Source: a virus
Strand: one strand, 5' to 3'
Virus record (IMG/VR): IMGVR_UViG_3300033998_000041
Coordinates: 1 to 35,509 of that record
Length of the DNA stretch: 35,509 bases
Shown here: in pieces, positions 2,091 to 35,509 of the stretch
Numbering within the stretch: the stretch's first letter is position 1
Layout of the letters: each line of letters starts with the position of its first letter
The notes under the pieces: generated by a model
Told to the model about the DNA's origin: nothing
The model's input: only the letters and a program-made list of their open reading frames with translations
Databases searched by the model: none
Position numbers and translations under genes: made by a program

Positions 2091-2470
2091 AACTCTTTCA
2101 TTTTTTCGATTGTCGTTAATACTTCACGCTCACGTTCTCCTAATTCGTAGTACTTCTCGACGTCTTCGATCGTAAGCGTTCCGTTCATGATCCTCTTTTT
2201 GATCTTCAGAAACTTGTCGTCGTCGATCATAAGCTGTTGCTTTTTTATTGTCATTTCATTGTCGTAATTTTCAGCGCTCTTTTCTACATACGATCCTGCG
2301 TTGTAATCAGGAAACAGTGCGTCGAACGCTTCGTTGATTTCGAGTTGTGCCGACTTGAAGCAGTCGGCTACATCGTCGCCTTCGTTGATTTCGTAGGTAA
2401 CTGACATTTTTGCAAATTCATAATTTCCAAGAGACCTTGAAATGTGTAACATGATTTCTTTTGCTTTCAT
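2087..2470 (-). CDS. Hypothetical protein in recombination module
   Basis: A 127-aa acidic protein. It starts 4 nt inside the exonuclease gene's end (ATGA overlap), so the two are probably co-translated. The N-terminal half (SLGNYEFAKMSVTYEINEGD, then a helix with CFKSAQLEINEAFD) looks like a small alpha/beta domain; the C-terminal half is helical and charged (TIEDVEKYYELGEREREVL). It sits where phages often place an annealing protein or exonuclease partner, but it has no RecT or Red-beta signature I can see. Product unknown. Confidence 0.68.
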   Translation of the reverse strand: MKAKEIMLHISRSLGNYEFAKMSVTYEINEGDDVADCFKSAQLEINEAFDALFPDYNAGSYVEKSAENYDNEMTIKKQQLMIDDDKFLKIKKRIMNGTLTIEDVEKYYELGEREREVLTTIEKMKEL

Positions 2471-3381
2471 TTCAATGTAATTTTAAGATACGGTTTTACA
2501 ACTGATGTTTTCAAGTAATCGCTTTCGTTGATTTCTGGATGTTCTTTCAGCAATTTCGCTTTGTCAAACGTCGATCGAATGCTTTCAGGCACTACCGTCA
2601 ACGTATATCCGTCGCTTTTAAGCGACTTAACGCCGTTCTTCAACATCAGATCAAGCATGATAGCTTTTTGCTTTTCTACCTCTTCCTCCATTTTTTTTAT
2701 TTGTGAAAGATAGTTGAACATCACCTCAGCCGCTGCCTGCTCGTGTGGCATCAAATCGAACGTTGTCCATTCGTCTTTTTCCTGATAGATAAACGTGTCG
2801 CAAAAGTCGTCGATCAGGCTTATGCCATTTCGTAAGATTTCAATAAACTTGTCGTCGCGTACTATGAATAGATCATAATAGCCTTTATACTCATCAGCAT
2901 CGAATTTAGCGCCTTGATCACCTTTTGTAAGAAAAACTATTTTTGCTCCTAACATGTAGTACCATTGAAGTTGCGCTATGTAATCTTTAATAGTTGTATC
3001 TACATCAGTTGATGTGTATTTCGCTTCAACTACAGTATTTCTGTCTTTGTCGTAAAAATCTGCGTGCGCAAAAATTTTGAAGTTTCGAGGCTTGATAAAA
3101 TTACTTTCTAACTTGTAGTTACTCTCCCATCCATTTTCTTCACTGTATTTTGATCTTAGCCACATCTCGAATTCATTCCCAGCCTCCATCGCTTCAGTCG
3201 CAGGTATTTCGATGTACTCTGCCTGTCCGAGCGCGACTGCTATCCTTCGCTTATCCGTGTCAGACAAAGCCGACAAGCCTTTCAGTCCTACCTTGTAAAA
3301 CATCTTCGCGTCCGATCCTCCGAACCCGCCTTTACGGGTTTCGACGATCTCTCTCTTTTGTTCTGTTTGATTGTTGTTCAT
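2467..3381 (-). CDS. YqaJ-like / PD-(D/E)XK recombination exonuclease
   Basis: A 304-aa protein with the PD-(D/E)XK order of lambda-exonuclease/YqaJ nucleases: E70/E72 in AGNEFEMWLRS, D108 in FAHADFYD, E119-A-K121 in VVEAKYTST, and Q137/Q139 in AQLQWYYML. The C-terminal part (helical from about 215) ends with a basic FDKAKLLKEHPEI segment also typical of these proteins. These enzymes resect double-stranded DNA ends for phage recombination. It is the first gene after its own promoter and after a duplicated intergenic element. No RecT partner is visible. Confidence 0.8.
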   Translation of the reverse strand: MNNNQTEQKREIVETRKGGFGGSDAKMFYKVGLKGLSALSDTDKRRIAVALGQAEYIEIPATEAMEAGNEFEMWLRSKYSEENGWESNYKLESNFIKPRNFKIFAHADFYDKDRNTVVEAKYTSTDVDTTIKDYIAQLQWYYMLGAKIVFLTKGDQGAKFDADEYKGYYDLFIVRDDKFIEILRNGISLIDDFCDTFIYQEKDEWTTFDLMPHEQAAAEVMFNYLSQIKKMEEEVEKQKAIMLDLMLKNGVKSLKSDGYTLTVVPESIRSTFDKAKLLKEHPEINESDYLKTSVVKPYLKITLK

Positions 3382-3426
3382 AACTTTTGTTTTTTAGTTG
3401 TTATTCATAATTTGAAATTCACTTCA

Positions 3427-3458
3427 CAAATCTAATAGATTATTTTCTATTTCGCAAA
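3427..3458 (-). promoter_or_regulatory. Bacteroides-type promoter for the exonuclease operon
   Basis: On the minus strand: TTTG, 20 nt, TAGATTTG, an exact fit to the Bacteroides -33/-7 consensus (TTTG, 19-21 nt, TAnnTTTG). Transcription would start near 3420, about 40 nt before the exonuclease ATG. The -33 box lies inside a GCAAA-N4-TTTGC palindrome. Confidence 0.75.
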
Positions 3459-3467
3459 CTTTTTTGC
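3454..3467. promoter_or_regulatory. GCAAA-N4-TTTGC palindrome over the -33 box
   Basis: GCAAA CTTT TTTGC, with the left arm forming the -33 element of the minus-strand promoter. The same symmetric element sits at the same place over the promoters at 7062 and (one mismatch) 30880. A shared operator for an early/middle gene regulator is a plausible reading. Confidence 0.5.
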
Positions 3468-3486
3468 AATTATTTTTCAGTAGTAC

Positions 3487-3725
3487 AAAAAATAAATTTC
3501 AGAAAAATCGATTTATCGCCTCAAACGCGCTCCTGGATTATGTTTCATAGAAAAATAATAAAATAAGCATTTAATTTGAAAACTATATATAGTATTATTT
3601 TTATTATTTATATCTCTATATAAAGTAATTTATTTTTTATTTTTTACTCATTATTACTTGAAACATAACAACTTAACTCGATAAATTTTTATGGTAAATT
3701 TTTTGTCACTACTTTTATTTTTTAC
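3487..3725. repeat. Intergenic repeat element, copy A
   Basis: Fills most of the gap between the 122-aa gene and the exonuclease gene. It is a diverged direct copy of about 29041-29300. The best-conserved blocks are TTATCGCCTCAAA, GCTCCTG, AAATAAGCA, AAACTATATATAG and a 39-base stretch (3615-3653) identical to 29179-29217. Inner arms ACTATATATAG (from 3582) and CTATATAAAGT pair as an AT-only hairpin; outer arms TTATGTTTCA (3538-3547) and TGAAACATAA (3659-3668) are exact inverted repeats. It lies upstream of the promoter, so it acts as DNA (origin, enhancer) rather than as a leader. No gene seen here. Confidence 0.8.
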
Positions 3726-5231: not shown

Positions 5232-5276
5232 CTAAAAAAAATCGGATAGGATAGACAAACAGCCTACCTATCCGAT
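5232..5276 (-). terminator. Intrinsic terminator inside the early operon
   Basis: ATCGGATAGG and CCTATCCGAT form a perfect 10-bp stem around 16 nt, followed on the minus strand by eight T residues. It lies between the 129-aa gene and the 67-aa gene, both in the same direction. I find no TAnnTTTG box between it and the next start, so it probably lowers, rather than stops, downstream expression, or is overcome by antitermination. Confidence 0.82.
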
Positions 5277-5281
5277 AAAAT

Positions 5282-5671
5282 TCATTCTTCTGATTCCACT
5301 TCGTCGCTCTCGAACCACTCCTTAAAAGCATCTTTCGCTCTCATAATCATTTCTTCAACCGCTTTTTTGCAAGCAGGTGTCAACGGAAAGTTAAACAATC
5401 CTGTTACGTAACCGTGTCCTTCGGCTACCTCACAAAGATAGTCGTCGCTTGTCAACTTAAATCCGAAAGGATCTTTGTTAGGGTTAAACCTTTCGCACAG
5501 GAAAGAGAATTTTTTTCCGTCGTCGTCCGTTGTTTTCAGAAACATCGCCGGCGTTCCTTTCGTTGTTTCTCTTATAACAAACTCGCTTCTGTTCATTATT
5601 TCCTTGAACCATCCGAGTGTTCCAAGCATGTGTCCTTTGTTTTCAATTCTGATTTCAATACTTGTTTTCAT
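5282..5671 (-). CDS. Hypothetical early protein (129 aa)
   Basis: Begins MKTSIEIRIENKGH. The middle has aromatic, acidic stretches (TTDDDGKKFSFLCERFNP, FKLTSDDYLCEV) and the C-terminus is a helix (ACKKAVEEMIMRAKDAFKEWF) ending in DEVESEE. The 68-bp repeat copy 1 forms its leader and first codons. A strong terminator follows directly. Overall acidic, soluble, unknown function. Confidence 0.65.
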   Translation of the reverse strand: MKTSIEIRIENKGHMLGTLGWFKEIMNRSEFVIRETTKGTPAMFLKTTDDDGKKFSFLCERFNPNKDPFGFKLTSDDYLCEVAEGHGYVTGLFNFPLTPACKKAVEEMIMRAKDAFKEWFESDEVESEE

Positions 5672-5731
5672 AACTTTATATTTTAATAAATTTTTTGCCT
5701 ACTCTTTTTGAGGATTTTCGGCAGCCTCCTT
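5664..5731. repeat. 68-bp direct repeat, copy 1 (gene leader)
   Basis: Matches 5975-6042 at 65 of 68 positions. On the minus strand it reads from AAGGAGGCTGCCG through a GCC...GGC pairing to the start ATGAAAAC of the 129-aa gene. The two copies flank the 80-aa gene, which therefore looks like a duplicated or inserted cassette sharing a leader. Confidence 0.92.
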
Positions 5732-5739
5732 GTTAAATT

Positions 5740-5982
5740 TTAAAAACCTCTGTCAATTTCTTCAAATTTAAGAGCTAAATCATACCAATATTTAACGCCT
5801 TCTTTAGTATTGCACCAATTAAACGCCTCAGAAATACATATAAATCCACTTTCATAATTTATATTTGAAATAACATCTTTATAATTCTTGTATTTTTTTA
5901 TATTTTTCATAAATGAATTATAAGCATTATTTTCAATCAAAAAATTTTGTAAAAGTGGTTTCAATTCTTTTTTAGTTTTCAT
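5740..5982 (-). CDS. Hypothetical small lysine/asparagine-rich protein (80 aa)
   Basis: Mostly helical and basic at the N-terminus (MKTKKELKPLLQNF, FMKNIKKYKNYKD), with aromatic residues toward the end (FNWCNTKEGVKYWYDLALKF). Lower GC than its neighbours. It is bracketed by the two 68-bp repeats, so it may be a mobile single-gene cassette or the product of a local duplication whose coding parts diverged. Function unknown. Confidence 0.62.
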   Translation of the reverse strand: MKTKKELKPLLQNFLIENNAYNSFMKNIKKYKNYKDVISNINYESGFICISEAFNWCNTKEGVKYWYDLALKFEEIDRGF

Positions 5983-6042
5983 AACTTTATATTTTAATAA
6001 ATTTTTTGCCTACTCTTTTAAAGGATTTTCGGCAACCTCCTT
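5975..6042. repeat. 68-bp direct repeat, copy 2 (gene leader)
   Basis: Second copy, three substitutions from 5664-5731. On the minus strand it carries AAGGAGG, a TTGCC...GGCAA pairing, TTATTAAAATATAAAGTT and the first bases of the 80-aa gene. Sequence identity reaches through the start codon, so the leader itself may be the functional unit (translation or RNA stability). Confidence 0.92.
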
Positions 6043-6050
6043 ATGTTAGT

Positions 6051-6341
6051 TTACTTCTCGCTACCGAGCGATACATAAGTAAGTTCCTGCAAATAAACAC
6101 CGCTATTGGCTCTCTTATTCAGCCAGCGATTAAGTTTTTCACATTTTAAATTATACTCTTTCGGATAGTACTCAATAACTGCGTAAGTTTTACCGTTTGT
6201 TGTGAACGCGTTTTGAAATTGCGCGCCTTCGACTTCGCATAGAAATTCAATACTCTGTTTGTAAGCTTTGTAAAGCTTTGATCCTTCACTGTAATGTTTC
6301 ATTTTACCGTTAAAACGATACTTTTTAAATCTTGCGTTCAT
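6051..6341 (-). CDS. Hypothetical early protein (96 aa)
   Basis: A basic N-terminus (MNARFKKYRFNGKMKHY) is followed by a helix and a beta-rich middle (TNGKTYAVIEYYPKEYNLKCEKLNRWL). The end reads YLQELTYVSLGSEK. Starts AAGTCATGAACGC. No known family recognised. It lies in the run of short early genes and upstream of the second 68-bp leader. Confidence 0.63.
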   Translation of the reverse strand: MNARFKKYRFNGKMKHYSEGSKLYKAYKQSIEFLCEVEGAQFQNAFTTNGKTYAVIEYYPKEYNLKCEKLNRWLNKRANSGVYLQELTYVSLGSEK

Positions 6342-6366
6342 GACTTTAATTTTTAATTTGTTGTGT

Positions 6367-6564
6367 TTAAATCATTTCAAATCTGAATCTATTCTTTTTC
6401 TTAATCACCCGGCAGCCGTCTATTTTACCCTTACTATTAATCAAAGAATATACACCCGATGAATCTTCGTGCAGTTCAATACTTGTCGAATAAAAGTATT
6501 GATTTACCATCTTTGTTATTCTATCTAAAGACGGAGCACTTGCCAATAATGTTACTGTTTTCAT
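6367..6564 (-). CDS. Hypothetical early protein (65 aa)
   Basis: Begins MKTVTLLASAPSLDRITKMVNQYF and ends KKKNRFRFEMI. The frame stays open upstream to a GTG at 6699, adding 45 low-complexity K/N/E-rich residues. I choose the ATG at 6564 because the upstream part coincides with an imperfect nucleotide tandem repeat that looks like a leader, and because ATGAAAACAGTAAC matches other starts here. If the longer form is real, it has two basic repeats of about 19 aa at its N-terminus. Confidence 0.55.
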   Translation of the reverse strand: MKTVTLLASAPSLDRITKMVNQYFYSTSIELHEDSSGVYSLINSKGKIDGCRVIKKKNRFRFEMI

Positions 6565-6582
6565 TTTGTTTTCTGTATTTAA

Positions 6583-6700
6583 TTTGTTGTTTTTCGCGCC
6601 TATTTTCGGCGCTTGTTTTTTGCGGTTGTTTTCTGCACGCTTGTTTTTTTCGGTGCTCTTATTTTCTTCCCCGTTGTTTTTTCTGTTTGTTTTCTGCACG
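6583..6700. repeat. Imperfect tandem repeat, period about 61 bp
   Basis: On the minus strand both units begin CGTGCAGAAAACAA and continue with AAAAAACAA, GAAAATA and a GC-containing segment. The second unit contains a perfect GCGCC-(7 nt)-GGCGC hairpin (6596-6612). It fills the gap between the 77-aa and 65-aa genes and could be an A-rich leader with hairpins or a repetitive N-terminal coding extension. Confidence 0.65.
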
Positions 6701-6728
6701 TGTTTTTTACGTATTCTAAAACTTCTTT

Positions 6729-6962
6729 TTATAACGACCTCGATAATTCCTTTAATCGCTTTAGCCCGTCCTGATAAACCACATGATTCTCATTCCAACA
6801 GGTGAAATTTAAAAATAACCTGTCGAATCTTTCTATCCATTCTTTCAAATACCAATATTGCCTTACAAGTTCCTCAGACCACTGTTTTTTGAGAGCCTGC
6901 TCAACTTCATTAAGGAGGCTTGTTGCCCACCTTCTATTATCTATACAATCCTGTAAATTCAT
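6729..6962 (-). CDS. First gene of the early operon, hypothetical (77 aa)
   Basis: A helical protein: MNLQDCIDNRRWATSLLNEVEQALKK, then WSEELVRQYWYLKEWIERFDRLFLNF, ending GLKRLKELSRSL. Rich in tryptophan and in charged heptad-like stretches. It is the first frame downstream of the promoter at 7035-7066, after a leader of about 65 nt that carries AAAAAGTTATGAAT. As the first transcribed early gene it is a candidate host-takeover or regulatory protein, but I recognise no family. Confidence 0.66.
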   Translation of the reverse strand: MNLQDCIDNRRWATSLLNEVEQALKKQWSEELVRQYWYLKEWIERFDRLFLNFTCWNENHVVYQDGLKRLKELSRSL

Positions 6963-7034
6963 AACTTTTTGTTTTTTAGTTTTATGCTCTTTCGAGCGGT
7001 TTATAACTGTTATTGTTTATCTTTTAATTGTCTT

Positions 7035-7066
7035 CAAATTTACAACTTTACTTCTTAACATGCAAA
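7035..7066 (-). promoter_or_regulatory. Bacteroides-type promoter for early operon
   Basis: Minus strand: TTTG (7063-7066), 20 nt, TAAATTTG (7035-7042), matching the Bacteroides consensus exactly. It faces the run of small early genes. A second TAnnTTTG-like box exists inside the -33 palindrome but has no matching -33. Confidence 0.78.
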
Positions 7067-7076
7067 TTTATTTGCA
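7061..7076. promoter_or_regulatory. Perfect palindrome over early promoter -33 box
   Basis: TGCAAAT-TT-ATTTGCA, with two 7-base arms and a 2-base centre, contains the -33 TTTG of the early promoter. Its core GCAAA-N4-TTTGC recurs at 3454-3467 and, with one change, at 30880-30893. Likely a protein-binding operator. Confidence 0.58.
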
Positions 7077-7148
7077 CTTTTAACATAGATTTAACACGTA
7101 TTTAACATAATCTTAACATTAAGCACGTTTTTGTGCGTAAATAATAAC

Positions 7149-7156
7149 TACCTTTG
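7149..7156 (+). promoter_or_regulatory. Plus-strand -7 box, divergent from early promoter
   Basis: TACCTTTG, a full match to the Bacteroides -7 consensus, on the strand opposite all genes. A TTTG lies upstream but only 15 nt away, shorter than usual, so the -33 is weak. A start near 7163 would be followed after about 95 nt by a strong terminator. Confidence 0.5.
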
Positions 7157-7162
7157 TATCGT

Positions 7163-7258
7163 GTAATTTACTACTTATAGATTAGACATTCTTAAAAAAT
7201 TACGTTCATAACTTTACGTGGTTGCCATTCGTTGCGAAACGAGCGGCAATTTTTTTTT
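7163..7258 (+). ncRNA. Candidate small RNA in the control region
   Basis: The about 95 nt between the plus-strand -7 box and the plus-strand terminator contain no ATG frame on that strand. The stretch holds GTTCATAACTTTA, the complement of AAAGTTATGAA, which is the translation start region of several phage genes on the minus strand. So the RNA might pair with phage messages. The alternative is that this is a leftover gene start on the minus strand (ATGAACGTAATTTTTTAA, 5 codons). Boundaries are estimates. Confidence 0.45.
7222..7258 (+). terminator. Plus-strand intrinsic terminator with GCGA tetraloop
   Basis: TTGCC pairs with GGCAA, then TTCGTT with AACGAG (one G-U), closed by a GNRA tetraloop GCGA, then nine or more T residues. 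The T run follows only on the plus strand, so it ends plus-strand transcription, although no protein gene lies on that strand. Confidence 0.82.
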
Positions 7259-7267
7259 GTGCGTACA

Positions 7268-7302
7268 TAAAAAAATAACGGCTACCTTCGCAGGCTGCCG
7301 CT
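7268..7302 (-). terminator. Late operon intrinsic terminator
   Basis: On the minus strand: AGCGGC-A-GCC, loop TGCGAA, GGT-A-GCCGTT, then ATTTTTTTATG. It lies about 70 nt after the stop of the last late gene and faces the plus-strand terminator, so the two transcripts converge here without overlap. Confidence 0.82.
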
Positions 7303-7375
7303 ACTCATGAATAACAAATAATCTAACTACAAAAATGATCTTATGCCTTATGTCAAATCTTAATCAAGCATTATC

Positions 7376-7756
7376 TCACCATTTTATCTTAATTATAACG
7401 TATATTACTATTATCGCGATAATAATGTTTAGGACCGACAATCTTATTTGTTGCCATTTCGTCAACCTGTTAACCTCTTTCACTACCTCAACCGAGTAAG
7501 GTATCGAATCGACTTTAACGACGCTTATCGTGTCGATCCTGAATCGCTCACGCCACTTTATCGACTGAAGATAAACGGTGTCGTTCTGTGAGAACAACAT
7601 CAAAGTGTCGCGATTATATACGCTGTCAACTCGAAACCGTTCGCGAAACTCGATCTTCGTTTCTGGTATCGGGACAAGTATCTGTTTCGGCTTACATCCT
7701 GAAATAGATAACAGAATGATTATCAAAATAGATAAATGTAATATGTATTTTTTCAT
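7376..7756 (-). CDS. Unimolecular-spanin-like lipoprotein
   Basis: A 126-aa protein with a lipoprotein signal (hydrophobic residues 5-20, lipobox SISGC with C21) and a second hydrophobic segment at the C-terminus (about 108-123), joined by a beta-rich linker with repeated FRERFRVDS / WRERFRIDT units. An outer-membrane lipid anchor plus a C-terminal inner-membrane helix is the architecture of unimolecular spanins such as T1 gp11, which fuse the two membranes at lysis. It is the last gene of the late operon and shares it with holin and lysozyme. Overlaps the previous gene by ATGA. Confidence 0.72.
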   Translation of the reverse strand: MKKYILHLSILIIILLSISGCKPKQILVPIPETKIEFRERFRVDSVYNRDTLMLFSQNDTVYLQSIKWRERFRIDTISVVKVDSIPYSVEVVKEVNRLTKWQQIRLSVLNIIIAIIVIYVIIKIKW

Positions 7757-26908: not shown

Positions 26909-27279
26909 TTGTCGTCGTCTTTTGACTTGTCTATGAAATTAACCGTAAATCCTTTGTCGTTCGTGTTCATCTCTATATATTGCTGATTTAGCATCCTTCG
27001 CTCATCAGGTGTACATATCAATCGATACAACGCCAATAACTCGCCTGCCTTGTCCGATTTAAATAACTTCGATCTGATAGCCGACTTCGTGCGTATCTTG
27101 TTCTCATTCAACAATCTCTTAAAGTATTCCGATTCTTCCGAGCCTTCAGGAAATAACTCATAGAATGTCGATGTGCTGCACGGAAGCCAAGCAATTATAT
27201 CGTTAACGAAAAACAAATTGTTTCGCTTTATCGCTTCTTCAGCCATCTTTACCAATTCCTGTTTATCGTATAGTGCCAT
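26905..27279 (-). CDS. terS: Small terminase subunit (probable)
   Basis: A 124-aa protein from MALYDKQELVKMAEEAIKRN; a DNA-binding-like helical part (NDIIAWLPCSTSTFYELFPEGSEE) then ENKIRTKSAIRSKLFKSD and LYRLICTPDERRMLN, a pattern of small terminases in Bacteroides phages. An ATG 7 codons upstream (27300) is also possible; I prefer 27279 for its AAAAAATTATGGC context. Either start lies inside the glycosyltransferase gene's end. It recognises the packaging site, probably a pac or cos sequence nearby. Confidence 0.75.
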   Translation of the reverse strand: MALYDKQELVKMAEEAIKRNNLFFVNDIIAWLPCSTSTFYELFPEGSEESEYFKRLLNENKIRTKSAIRSKLFKSDKAGELLALYRLICTPDERRMLNQQYIEMNTNDKGFTVNFIDKSKDDDK

Positions 27280-28198
27280 AATTTTTTCGTTTTGGTTCAT
27301 TTGTAAATGGATAATCTTCAGGATACGTATCCCATGCTATGTTATCTTTTCCAACTCCTTTTAATATCATCGGATACAAATATCGTCGCTGTATGTGATG
27401 ATGTAACCTGCCTCCGTTTTTAACCTGTTTTTCTGCATAAATAGCACTCGGAAACTGTATCGGTGTAACAAGTGCCTTATTCAACAATTTGCATTCATTG
27501 TATAAATCAGTCAATCCTCCTTTTGCAGTTGCCGACATCGTTTGCTTGAGGACTAATCCATCTCCGTAGCTTCCTGTAAATAATCCTTCGTTCATTATTC
27601 CTACAAATTGACTTGTGTCATCATCCTGTACTCCTCGTTCTCCTCGATAGATATATTTTGTCAAAATAAACGTAGTATTCATTACTTTATTTCGAAGCAA
27701 TTTATTATCTACTCCTCCGATAAAATCCCCTGTTTGACTTATTCCGAAACAACCGATATGTCTCTTATACATCAATTCACAAACACTTTCAAAAATAGTT
27801 GTGATATCGTCAATATTAGCTGAACGAATAGTTTTTCCTTTATATTTCACTTGATAACTTTCAGTATCGTCGTCCTGTACCATGTAAAATTCTATTCCTT
27901 TCTCTTTTGCGTAATCGTAAAACATATTTCGTGCCTGTCCAGCTGAACGTCTCGAAATACTTGCTCTATGCACATAATCATATCTTTGCCTTGCTTCATT
28001 CATATCAAAAACGAAAAGATTAAATCCAATTTCTTGTGCCAATGCTTCGTATTCTGATTTATCTTCTGCTTCATCATCGATAAACACATGTATATTTTTT
28101 ACGTTCCAGCCAATTTTAACGAAATATTTCACAGTCTTCAAATTCTTAGCTCTGTGATACGACGGAATAAATATGTCAATCATTTCAGTTTTCATCAT
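27263..28198 (-). CDS. TAGT-type glycosyltransferase (GT-A fold)
   Basis: A 311-aa protein. MIDIFIPSYHRAKNLKTVKYF starts a GT-A fold, with RRSAGQARNMFYDYA near 83-96 and an active-site VQDDDT at 107-112; a second VQDDDT lies at 190-195. This combination is found in the TET-associated glycosyltransferases described by Iyer and Aravind, which modify hydroxymethylated bases in phage DNA. Here no TET oxygenase and no thymidylate/hydroxymethylase gene is present, so the substrate is open. It sits between the ParB-like gene and the terminase, overlapping both. Confidence 0.72.
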   Translation of the reverse strand: MMKTEMIDIFIPSYHRAKNLKTVKYFVKIGWNVKNIHVFIDDEAEDKSEYEALAQEIGFNLFVFDMNEARQRYDYVHRASISRRSAGQARNMFYDYAKEKGIEFYMVQDDDTESYQVKYKGKTIRSANIDDITTIFESVCELMYKRHIGCFGISQTGDFIGGVDNKLLRNKVMNTTFILTKYIYRGERGVQDDDTSQFVGIMNEGLFTGSYGDGLVLKQTMSATAKGGLTDLYNECKLLNKALVTPIQFPSAIYAEKQVKNGGRLHHHIQRRYLYPMILKGVGKDNIAWDTYPEDYPFTNEPKRKNYGTIR

Positions 28199-28916
28199 CT
28201 TCTATTTTCCATCCTTCCAATTTGCTATTTGCTCTTAAAATATCATCTTCGAGAAATCCTTGTAATCCTTCATCGCAAAGCACTAACCGCAGTCGCTCAA
28301 TAACTCGCTTTTCTTTTTCGTCAGCATTGAAATAGTAGTAATTTGCAACATTTTCGAAATCAATCTTTAGAAATCGATATGCAAACATTTTCAATACTTC
28401 TTTCTTTTCATCGCTTAAATCTGATTCTTCGATAACTTTTATCTTAGCATCGAATTTTTCAGTGTCAATGCAATCGATTAATTTTATATTAGGCTTTTCT
28501 GTAGGTTCATAATAAATACTTTCAAACTTCAATTCGCTTAATATTTCTGTTTCCGATTTATTTTCAATAGGTACTCCCCACGATTCAAGATCAACGTTCC
28601 ATTCACCGAGTAACTCGTAATCCCATTCGCTTCCCCAATGCGCGTTGTCTTTTACGATAAATTCCTTCTTTTGTTCTTCAGTCAATCCTTCAACTTTTTC
28701 GATCCACGCATCTGGTATTTCTTTGTATCCGAGTTTCTTCAGTGCGAAGTACCGTTTATTCCCTCCGAGAATATTGTTATCTTCGTCGATAACGATCCGA
28801 CGAATTTCCATCATGCGTTCAAATTCCTGTATCGATTTTGCAATCTTCTTTATTTGCTCATCTCCGACAGATTTGAACGGGTTCTTTTCAAGCGGTTTTA
28901 ATTCCGATACTTTCAT
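28185..28916 (-). CDS. ParB/sulfiredoxin-like domain protein
   Basis: A 243-aa protein; the first about 90 residues follow the ParB N-terminal pattern: LKPLEKNPFKSVGDEQIKKI, then IVIDEDNNILGGNKRYFALKKLGYKEIP. The GGNKR segment is the ParB/Spo0J nucleotide-handling loop. The remaining 150 residues are charged and helical without a helix-turn-helix that I can see. No ParA gene is present, so plasmid partition is unlikely. Such proteins often neighbour phage DNA methylases, glycosyltransferases and terminases. First gene of the late operon. Confidence 0.78.
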   Translation of the reverse strand: MKVSELKPLEKNPFKSVGDEQIKKIAKSIQEFERMMEIRRIVIDEDNNILGGNKRYFALKKLGYKEIPDAWIEKVEGLTEEQKKEFIVKDNAHWGSEWDYELLGEWNVDLESWGVPIENKSETEILSELKFESIYYEPTEKPNIKLIDCIDTEKFDAKIKVIEESDLSDEKKEVLKMFAYRFLKIDFENVANYYYFNADEKEKRVIERLRLVLCDEGLQGFLEDDILRANSKLEGWKIEDDEN

Positions 28917-35338: not shown

Positions 35339-35484
35339 AATCTTACTTTTTTAAATGTTATCGAAAAACATAACCATGAAAGTACTACACATCTTTCGAA
35401 CACATCAATTTCTATCGTCGGTATCACAAACCAGCTGAAATCTGGATGATATTCAAATATTGTTGAAATTTTAACTGTTTTCAT
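35335..35484 (-). CDS. Hypothetical protein across the contig junction (49 aa)
   Basis: MKTVKISTIFEYHPDFSWFVI, then PTIEIDVFERCVVLSWLCFS and ITFKKVRL. The start is in the terminal overlap (also at 102 in the left copy), so the gene is complete only when the contig is closed. Start AATTAGTTATGAAAACAG matches the genome signature and the stop overlaps the next ATG. Function unknown. Confidence 0.62.
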   Translation of the reverse strand: MKTVKISTIFEYHPDFSWFVIPTIEIDVFERCVVLSWLCFSITFKKVRL

Positions 35485-35509
35485 AACTAATTAATTTTAT
35501 GCGTATTTA
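35383..35509. repeat. Contig-end overlap, right copy
   Basis: Exact second copy of the first 127 bases. Removing one copy gives a circle of 35,382 bp. The junction lies inside the early/middle operon: the primase gene on the left side and the VapE helicase gene on the right side are then separated only by two small genes. Confidence 0.95.

Follow-up and report, generated by a model that had tools for sequence, protein, structure and literature searches.

The control region of this phage raises the question of why a genome whose protein genes all lie on one strand should carry, on the other, a promoter box and a terminator with no reading frame between them, and at what an RNA made there would be directed. 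The window, that is, the whole stretch of 35,509 nucleotides analyzed here, has a 127-bp direct repeat common to both genome ends (1-127 and 35383-35509), and proteins from the two window ends adjoin each other in relatives L008 and L009, indicating a complete, circularly permuted genome of ~35.4 kb. Matches to a terminase, a portal, a head protease, a helicase, and a RecE-like exonuclease were found among its proteins, with the closest terminase relative (44.7%) in Flavobacterium phages, which places the window among tailed Bacteroidetes phages; judged by its sequence, it is a gut-type bacterial virus. No related DNA was matched in phage records, a terminase scan of the genome-contig collection returned 0 relatives, and a scan with the protein of early gene 6729-6962 found no relative. 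The orientation of all protein genes on the minus strand, as given in a preliminary description, rests on inspection of open reading frames rather than on a gene caller. Around the circle, the gene order runs leftward from 6962 to the gene at 7376, which is putatively spanin-like by product reading, and the gap between these gene ends (6963-7375) constitutes the control region. Elsewhere in the genome, a TET-associated glycosyltransferase (PF20691, E 9e-12) adjoins a ParB_N-like protein (27263-28916, minus strand), a pair that hints at DNA base modification.

Relatives were gathered by a 126-aa neighbor protein, for which a scan gave six loci and a profile scan one more. The whole region is kept in five relatives (L002-L006) and absent from L007 and L036, in which the neighbor protein is 64-67% identical. 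The plus-strand unit and the terminator that faces it comprise the following features.

7149-7156, plus strand: -7 element TACCTTTG (TAHHTTTG), identical in 6/6 phages
7161-7258, plus strand: predicted small RNA of ~98 nt, its start deduced from a -7 box spanning -12 to -5 and its end set by the T tract
7200-7217, plus strand: invariant block TTACGTTCATAACTTTAC, kept in all six phages
7206-7215, plus strand: anti-start loop UCAUAACUUU, between ACGU arms at 7202-7205 and 7216-7219
7221-7258, plus strand: intrinsic terminator with a GNRA loop (GCGA in the window, GAGA in L003) and T9, -15.5 kcal/mol, z -2.97
7269-7304, minus strand: facing terminator with a GCGA loop, closing the structural-gene operon, -16.7 kcal/mol, z -3.75

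The G of the Bacteroidetes -7 element sits at -5, according to the available part of PMC6847099, so plus-strand transcription is predicted to start near 7161. Because the plus strand of the genome contains 16 TAHHTTTG matches, the box by itself is weak evidence. The candidate -33 element, a T-run at 7128-7133 upstream of the box, is poorly spaced. Each run of at least seven T was scanned for a terminator, which was called strong if the preceding hairpin reached -9 kcal/mol or better. The terminator at 7221-7258, unlike the box, is not weak evidence, being the only strong one among 14 plus-strand T-runs; two of three minus-strand T-runs (7275 and 5241) were strong. The plus-strand unit ends ~12 bp before the facing minus-strand terminator. 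No plus-strand ORF of at least 40 aa lies inside the unit, and 7161-7258 has no ATG on the plus strand. The three elements from which a small RNA had originally been proposed, namely, the plus-strand -7 box, the GNRA-capped stem followed by nine T, and the absence of an open frame between them in the ORF list, were therefore all borne out. No Rfam family was found at or above its gathering score in 7149-7258, and our RNA model R1 had one strong copy in the window.

Three other readings of the segment were rejected. A cis-antisense RNA of the OOP/aQ type does not fit, since the predicted RNA shares no stretch with any gene or predicted transcript and lies between the predicted operon end (~7269) and the early start (~7030). 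A hidden small protein was dismissed because there is no plus-strand frame and the minus-strand frame is short and variable. A second plus-strand promoter at 7283-7290 (TACCTTCG, within a direct repeat) proved to be the stem of the minus-strand terminator.

The promoter box, the anti-start block, and the terminator occur together in six of six phages (the window and L002-L006). Invariant columns numbered 18/19 in 7200-7218, a count that leaves out 14 insertion columns of L002 and L004, versus 24/50 in the 5' part of the RNA (Fisher p 2.6e-4), which comes in two diverged forms, one in the window, L002, L004, and L006 and the other in L003 and L005. Invariance was also seen in 7126-7160 (31/35 columns) and in the facing-terminator segment 7270-7304 (32/35). 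The stem pairs of the plus-strand terminator are never broken in the six sequences, all changes falling outside the pairs. At the level of sequence, the unit and its conservation are demonstrated, and we consider it highly probable that it constitutes a separate plus-strand transcription unit for a small RNA.

Pattern scans of the viral collection yielded no further members, and a 27-letter pattern gave 0 matches in the genome-contig collection. Scanning 19 sources with the RNA model gave five strong matches, all of them known members or the window; the best remaining ones (E 0.04-0.05) were next to the L003 and L009 elements, on the strand opposite to them. A match in L010 (E 0.37), which has a related neighbor protein, was rejected because no such element was present on reading. 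The pattern also picked out a second promoter-seed pair in L006, L027, and L033, which proved to be a gene start preceded by a DUF805b-like motif, its promoter being due to chance. The other new pattern-scan loci, including L043-L046, had no such terminator when read.

The anti-start segment points to the following predicted targets, all on the minus strand.

6958-6968, minus strand: start of the first early gene, 6729-6962, 11-nt match
5978-5988, minus strand: start of gene 5740-5982, 12-nt match
5667-5677, minus strand: start of gene 5282-5671, 12-nt match
3377-3387, minus strand: start of the RecE-like exonuclease gene, 2467-3381, 12-nt match
6337-6347, minus strand: weaker predicted target, gene 6051-6341, AAAGTCATGAA/AAAGTCATGAACG, one mismatch and then extension by CG, duplex -13.8 kcal/mol

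The previously noted complementarity of 11-12 bases at 6962, 5982, 5671, and 3381 is thus contiguous Watson-Crick pairing (11, 12, 12, and 12 nt), and the near-match noted at 6341 differs by one mismatch. In the RNA, GTTCATAACTTTA is located at 7204-7216. The sequence AAAGTTATGAA occurs five times on the minus strand of the window and never on the plus strand; four of its sites are gene starts, and the fifth is the strand complementary to the RNA itself. With early genes defined as those within 6.2 kb downstream of the element and orthologues counted in each phage, starts pairing over at least 10 nt with the RNA of their own phage made up 14/52 early starts versus 3/91 others (Fisher p 5e-5, six phages). 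The sequences thus demonstrate a concentration of matches in early starts. The many phage messages of the earlier suggestion are better counted as a small number of early genes, four in the window and perhaps some weaker ones.

By BLASTP, the six first early-operon proteins form five groups that show no similarity to one another (one group is common to L009 and L006). The first-gene matches of these five unrelated groups are 11, 12, 9, 12, and 14 nt, the match in L003 being only 9 nt. The leader of gene 5282-5671 in the window, which contains a DUF805b motif, differs from that of its L002 orthologue, as judged by length and start, and AAAGTTATGAAAAC is the same in both. The only Rfam matches in the window were two DUF805b motifs on the minus strand (6007-6042 and 5696-5731; 52 and 50 bits), which lie directly upstream of the predicted target starts 5982 and 5671. 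Their loop, UUGCC/UGCC, could pair with a downstream GGCAA as a pseudoknot. Titles retrieved by the word DUF805b apparently included nothing on the RNA motif.

Dinucleotide shuffling of the 60-nt 5' part gave at least five starts matched over at least 10 nt in 4/2000 cases. A comparison of pairing energies with those of shuffled sequences, suggested in the preliminary description, revealed no energy advantage, as the summed five best duplex energies were equally low in 114/500 shuffles. Of the 4318 plus-strand windows chosen to avoid starts, 716 had a match to one start or more and 104 to three or more; T-rich plus-strand windows often match starts because starts are A-rich. These results make the match alone modest evidence, and conservation and early-gene concentration are stronger.

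The start signal was also considered apart from the RNA. Starts with AAGTTATGA were found in 19/137 ORFs of the six phages with the RNA versus 4/472 in 14 loci without it, a comparison in which five control loci have a G+C of 0.49-0.58 and orthologues, as in the early/late test, are counted repeatedly. Three of the four control starts belong to the unrelated Bacteroides phage B124-14, which has four AAAGTTATGA start-like sites and in which no RNA was found; the fourth belongs to L010, at its first early gene. These starts indicate that the signal exists independently of the RNA, and it can be present for its own sake. This bears on the possibility that the RNA is a real phage small RNA whose main targets are host messages with a AAAGTTATGA start, the phage early genes merely using the same signal. 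The B124-14 starts, which imply a more widely used signal, are in its favor, as are the phage small RNAs against host mRNAs, PreS and DicF, covered in the portion of PMC12197685 available. However, the matches concentrate in early phage genes and such starts are rare in the 14 other loci, and we regard host messages as unlikely to be the main targets.

When each RNA was folded alone, the anti-start segment had an unpaired probability of 0.78-0.97 in all six. In the window and L006, it forms a loop of 10 nt closed by the ACGU arms (about 0.95). The ACGU-arm stem is one among several forms in L002, L003, and L004 (0.34-0.43), and it fails in L005, whose arm reads ACAU. The proposed covariation check across related genomes found compensatory, both-side changes in 0/17 consensus pairs and therefore gives no support; the block is identical in all six phages, so there is no covariation with targets either. 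In L002 and L004, the anti-start motif is present twice in tandem, the second copy differing in two letters (AAAATTATGC), and no start matching this second motif was seen in the start lists examined. In another reading, the promoter and terminator are real and the RNA binds a protein or a host small RNA as a sponge or decoy, the repeated UUUACGU(U/G)CAUAA being the binding site and the start match a by-product. In its favor are the altered second copy, for which no matching start was seen, and conserved bases that reach past the strict anti-start stretch into the ACGU on either side; in addition, Bacteroides small RNAs bind RbpB, as reported in the accessible text of PMC11697453. Such a role would leave unexplained why five unrelated kinds of first gene all bear the complement, and we find it distinctly doubtful.

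It is also quite improbable that the block is a relic minus-strand gene start or a DNA-protein site, the plus-strand terminator only insulating the control region. The minus strand does read GTAAAGTTATGAACGTAA, which resembles the first-gene start TAAAGTTATGAACGCAA of L005 and L008, and the direct repeats of TTTACGT could serve as a DNA site. However, the frame after the ATG in the block has only 4-5 codons, differs between relatives, and lies downstream of the operon terminator. Had the element been such a relic, the promoter and terminator might have been lost with the match retained; instead, all three are kept together in 5/5 relatives having the region. The change of the terminator loop in L003 from GCGA to GAGA remains GNRA on the plus strand only, and a terminator implies a transcript to stop.

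Between the unit and the first early gene, three further elements were identified.

7035-7066, minus strand: early promoter by sequence, TTTG (7066-7063), a 20-nt spacer, and TAAATTTG (7042-7035)
7079-7118, no strand assigned: four TTAACA repeats with 11-bp spacing between the divergent promoters, probably a regulator site
7061-7076, no strand assigned: palindrome TGCAAATTTATTTGCA, overlapping the early -33 box, probably an operator

The leftward promoter fits the Bacteroidetes consensus TTTG/TAHHTTTG, as given in the consulted part of PMC6847099, and 56/58 columns in 7061-7118 are invariant. The arrangement of divergent promoters around shared repeats suggests that early messages and the RNA could be balanced against each other by a phage regulator. 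These AT-rich, iteron-like repeats and the adjacent palindrome would also suit an RNA serving replication (as a primer or in origin control, like the lambda po region), which is very improbable because the GC skew, negative along the whole genome as expected for a single coding strand, has no sign change at 7 kb and the anti-start block would be left unexplained.

Several other features were observed in the early operon. The first early leader contains a GNRA-type hairpin, GCTCGAAAGAGC (6986-6997, minus strand); in relatives, several early starts follow this hairpin or its GAGCAC end, which resembles a movable leader module. The leader of gene 6367-6564 is unusual in appearance, being A-rich (6565-6728, minus strand) with short GC hairpins between AAAACA-like runs. 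A very strong terminator (-21.1 kcal/mol) lies inside the operon after gene 5282-5671 (5234-5280, minus strand), where early transcription may be split. The long AT-rich gap before the RecE-like gene (3384-3721) contains a ATTTGTGAAGTG stretch and is a possible site of a second early promoter.

Initiation by Bacteroidetes ribosomes proceeds without Shine-Dalgarno pairing and depends on the start region. Adenines at -3, -6, -12, and -13 promote initiation in this phylum, according to the part of PMC6847099 available. In the reading that we favor, the phage would use a host-type promoter to transcribe, in the rightward direction, a small RNA of ~98 nt that acts in trans and has an intrinsic terminator of its own. 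The exposed anti-start segment, often a loop between ACGU arms, would pair with AAAGUUAUGA of early genes, covering -6 to +4 or +5, above all in the gene that heads the early operon, and would block ribosome entry by occluding the start codons. The likely purpose would be to damp early genes or turn them off, perhaps along with cistrons further downstream, once a given time or dose is reached. Transcription, pairing, repression, and timing are what we infer from the sequence, and early-gene repression by pairing at start regions is, in our view, reasonably probable. A broader proposal is tentative and rather unlikely to hold in full, namely, that an RNA with one or more anti-start loops targets a shared early start signal as a class, so that new operon-head genes with a AAAGTTATGAA start would be controlled automatically and extra loops would be added by tandem duplication, as in L002 and L004. 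If true, this would be a simple way of jointly silencing a changing set of early genes in a phylum without Shine-Dalgarno use.

Several known systems can be compared with this RNA. As described in the available portion of PMC11697453, FopS is a small RNA family of Bacteroides thetaiotaomicron with a canonical sigma-ABfr promoter, chromosomal, present in 14 copies of about 65-70 nt, with a 5'-end seed and PUL-gene targets. By this description, the predicted RNA would likewise be a Bacteroidetes small RNA with such a promoter, but it is phage-borne, single-copy, and ~98 nt long, with a central or loop seed and the phage's own early genes as predicted targets. FopS offers a Bacteroides precedent for start blocking (PMC11697453, as far as its accessible text goes), and by analogy the same action may occur here.

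The c4 RNA of P1/P7 is a phage antisense RNA with loop complementarity to the ribosome-binding region of a phage message, according to the accessible part of PMC12197685. To that extent, the predicted RNA resembles c4, being a phage antisense RNA with its complementary stretch in a loop and directed at a phage-message start region. The c4 RNA is presumably excised from the leader of its own target message, ant being the single target, whereas the predicted RNA would be a separate, divergent gene with several predicted targets. The sar RNA of P22 and the OOP RNA of lambda have their own promoter and terminator, and each is known for one phage target encoded nearby. Both are 68-77 nt long and regulate a phage message, as stated in the available part of PMC12197685; the predicted RNA, in contrast, lies clear of all genes and would have several targets in trans. 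The PreS RNA of phage lambda, a trans-acting small RNA of about 88 nt, acts on host dnaN with Hfq (PMC12197685, available text). Within that account, the predicted RNA would likewise be a trans-acting phage small RNA of similar kind, with phage starts as its predicted targets instead and in a different phylum.

A narrow search of open-licence papers found no report of a phage-encoded small RNA from Bacteroidetes phages. With c4 and sar, phage antisense RNAs are already known to prevent initiation at a phage gene, as covered in the accessible part of PMC12197685. What would set the present RNA apart is its predicted aim at a start signal common to several exchangeable early genes, its tandem motif, and its phylum.
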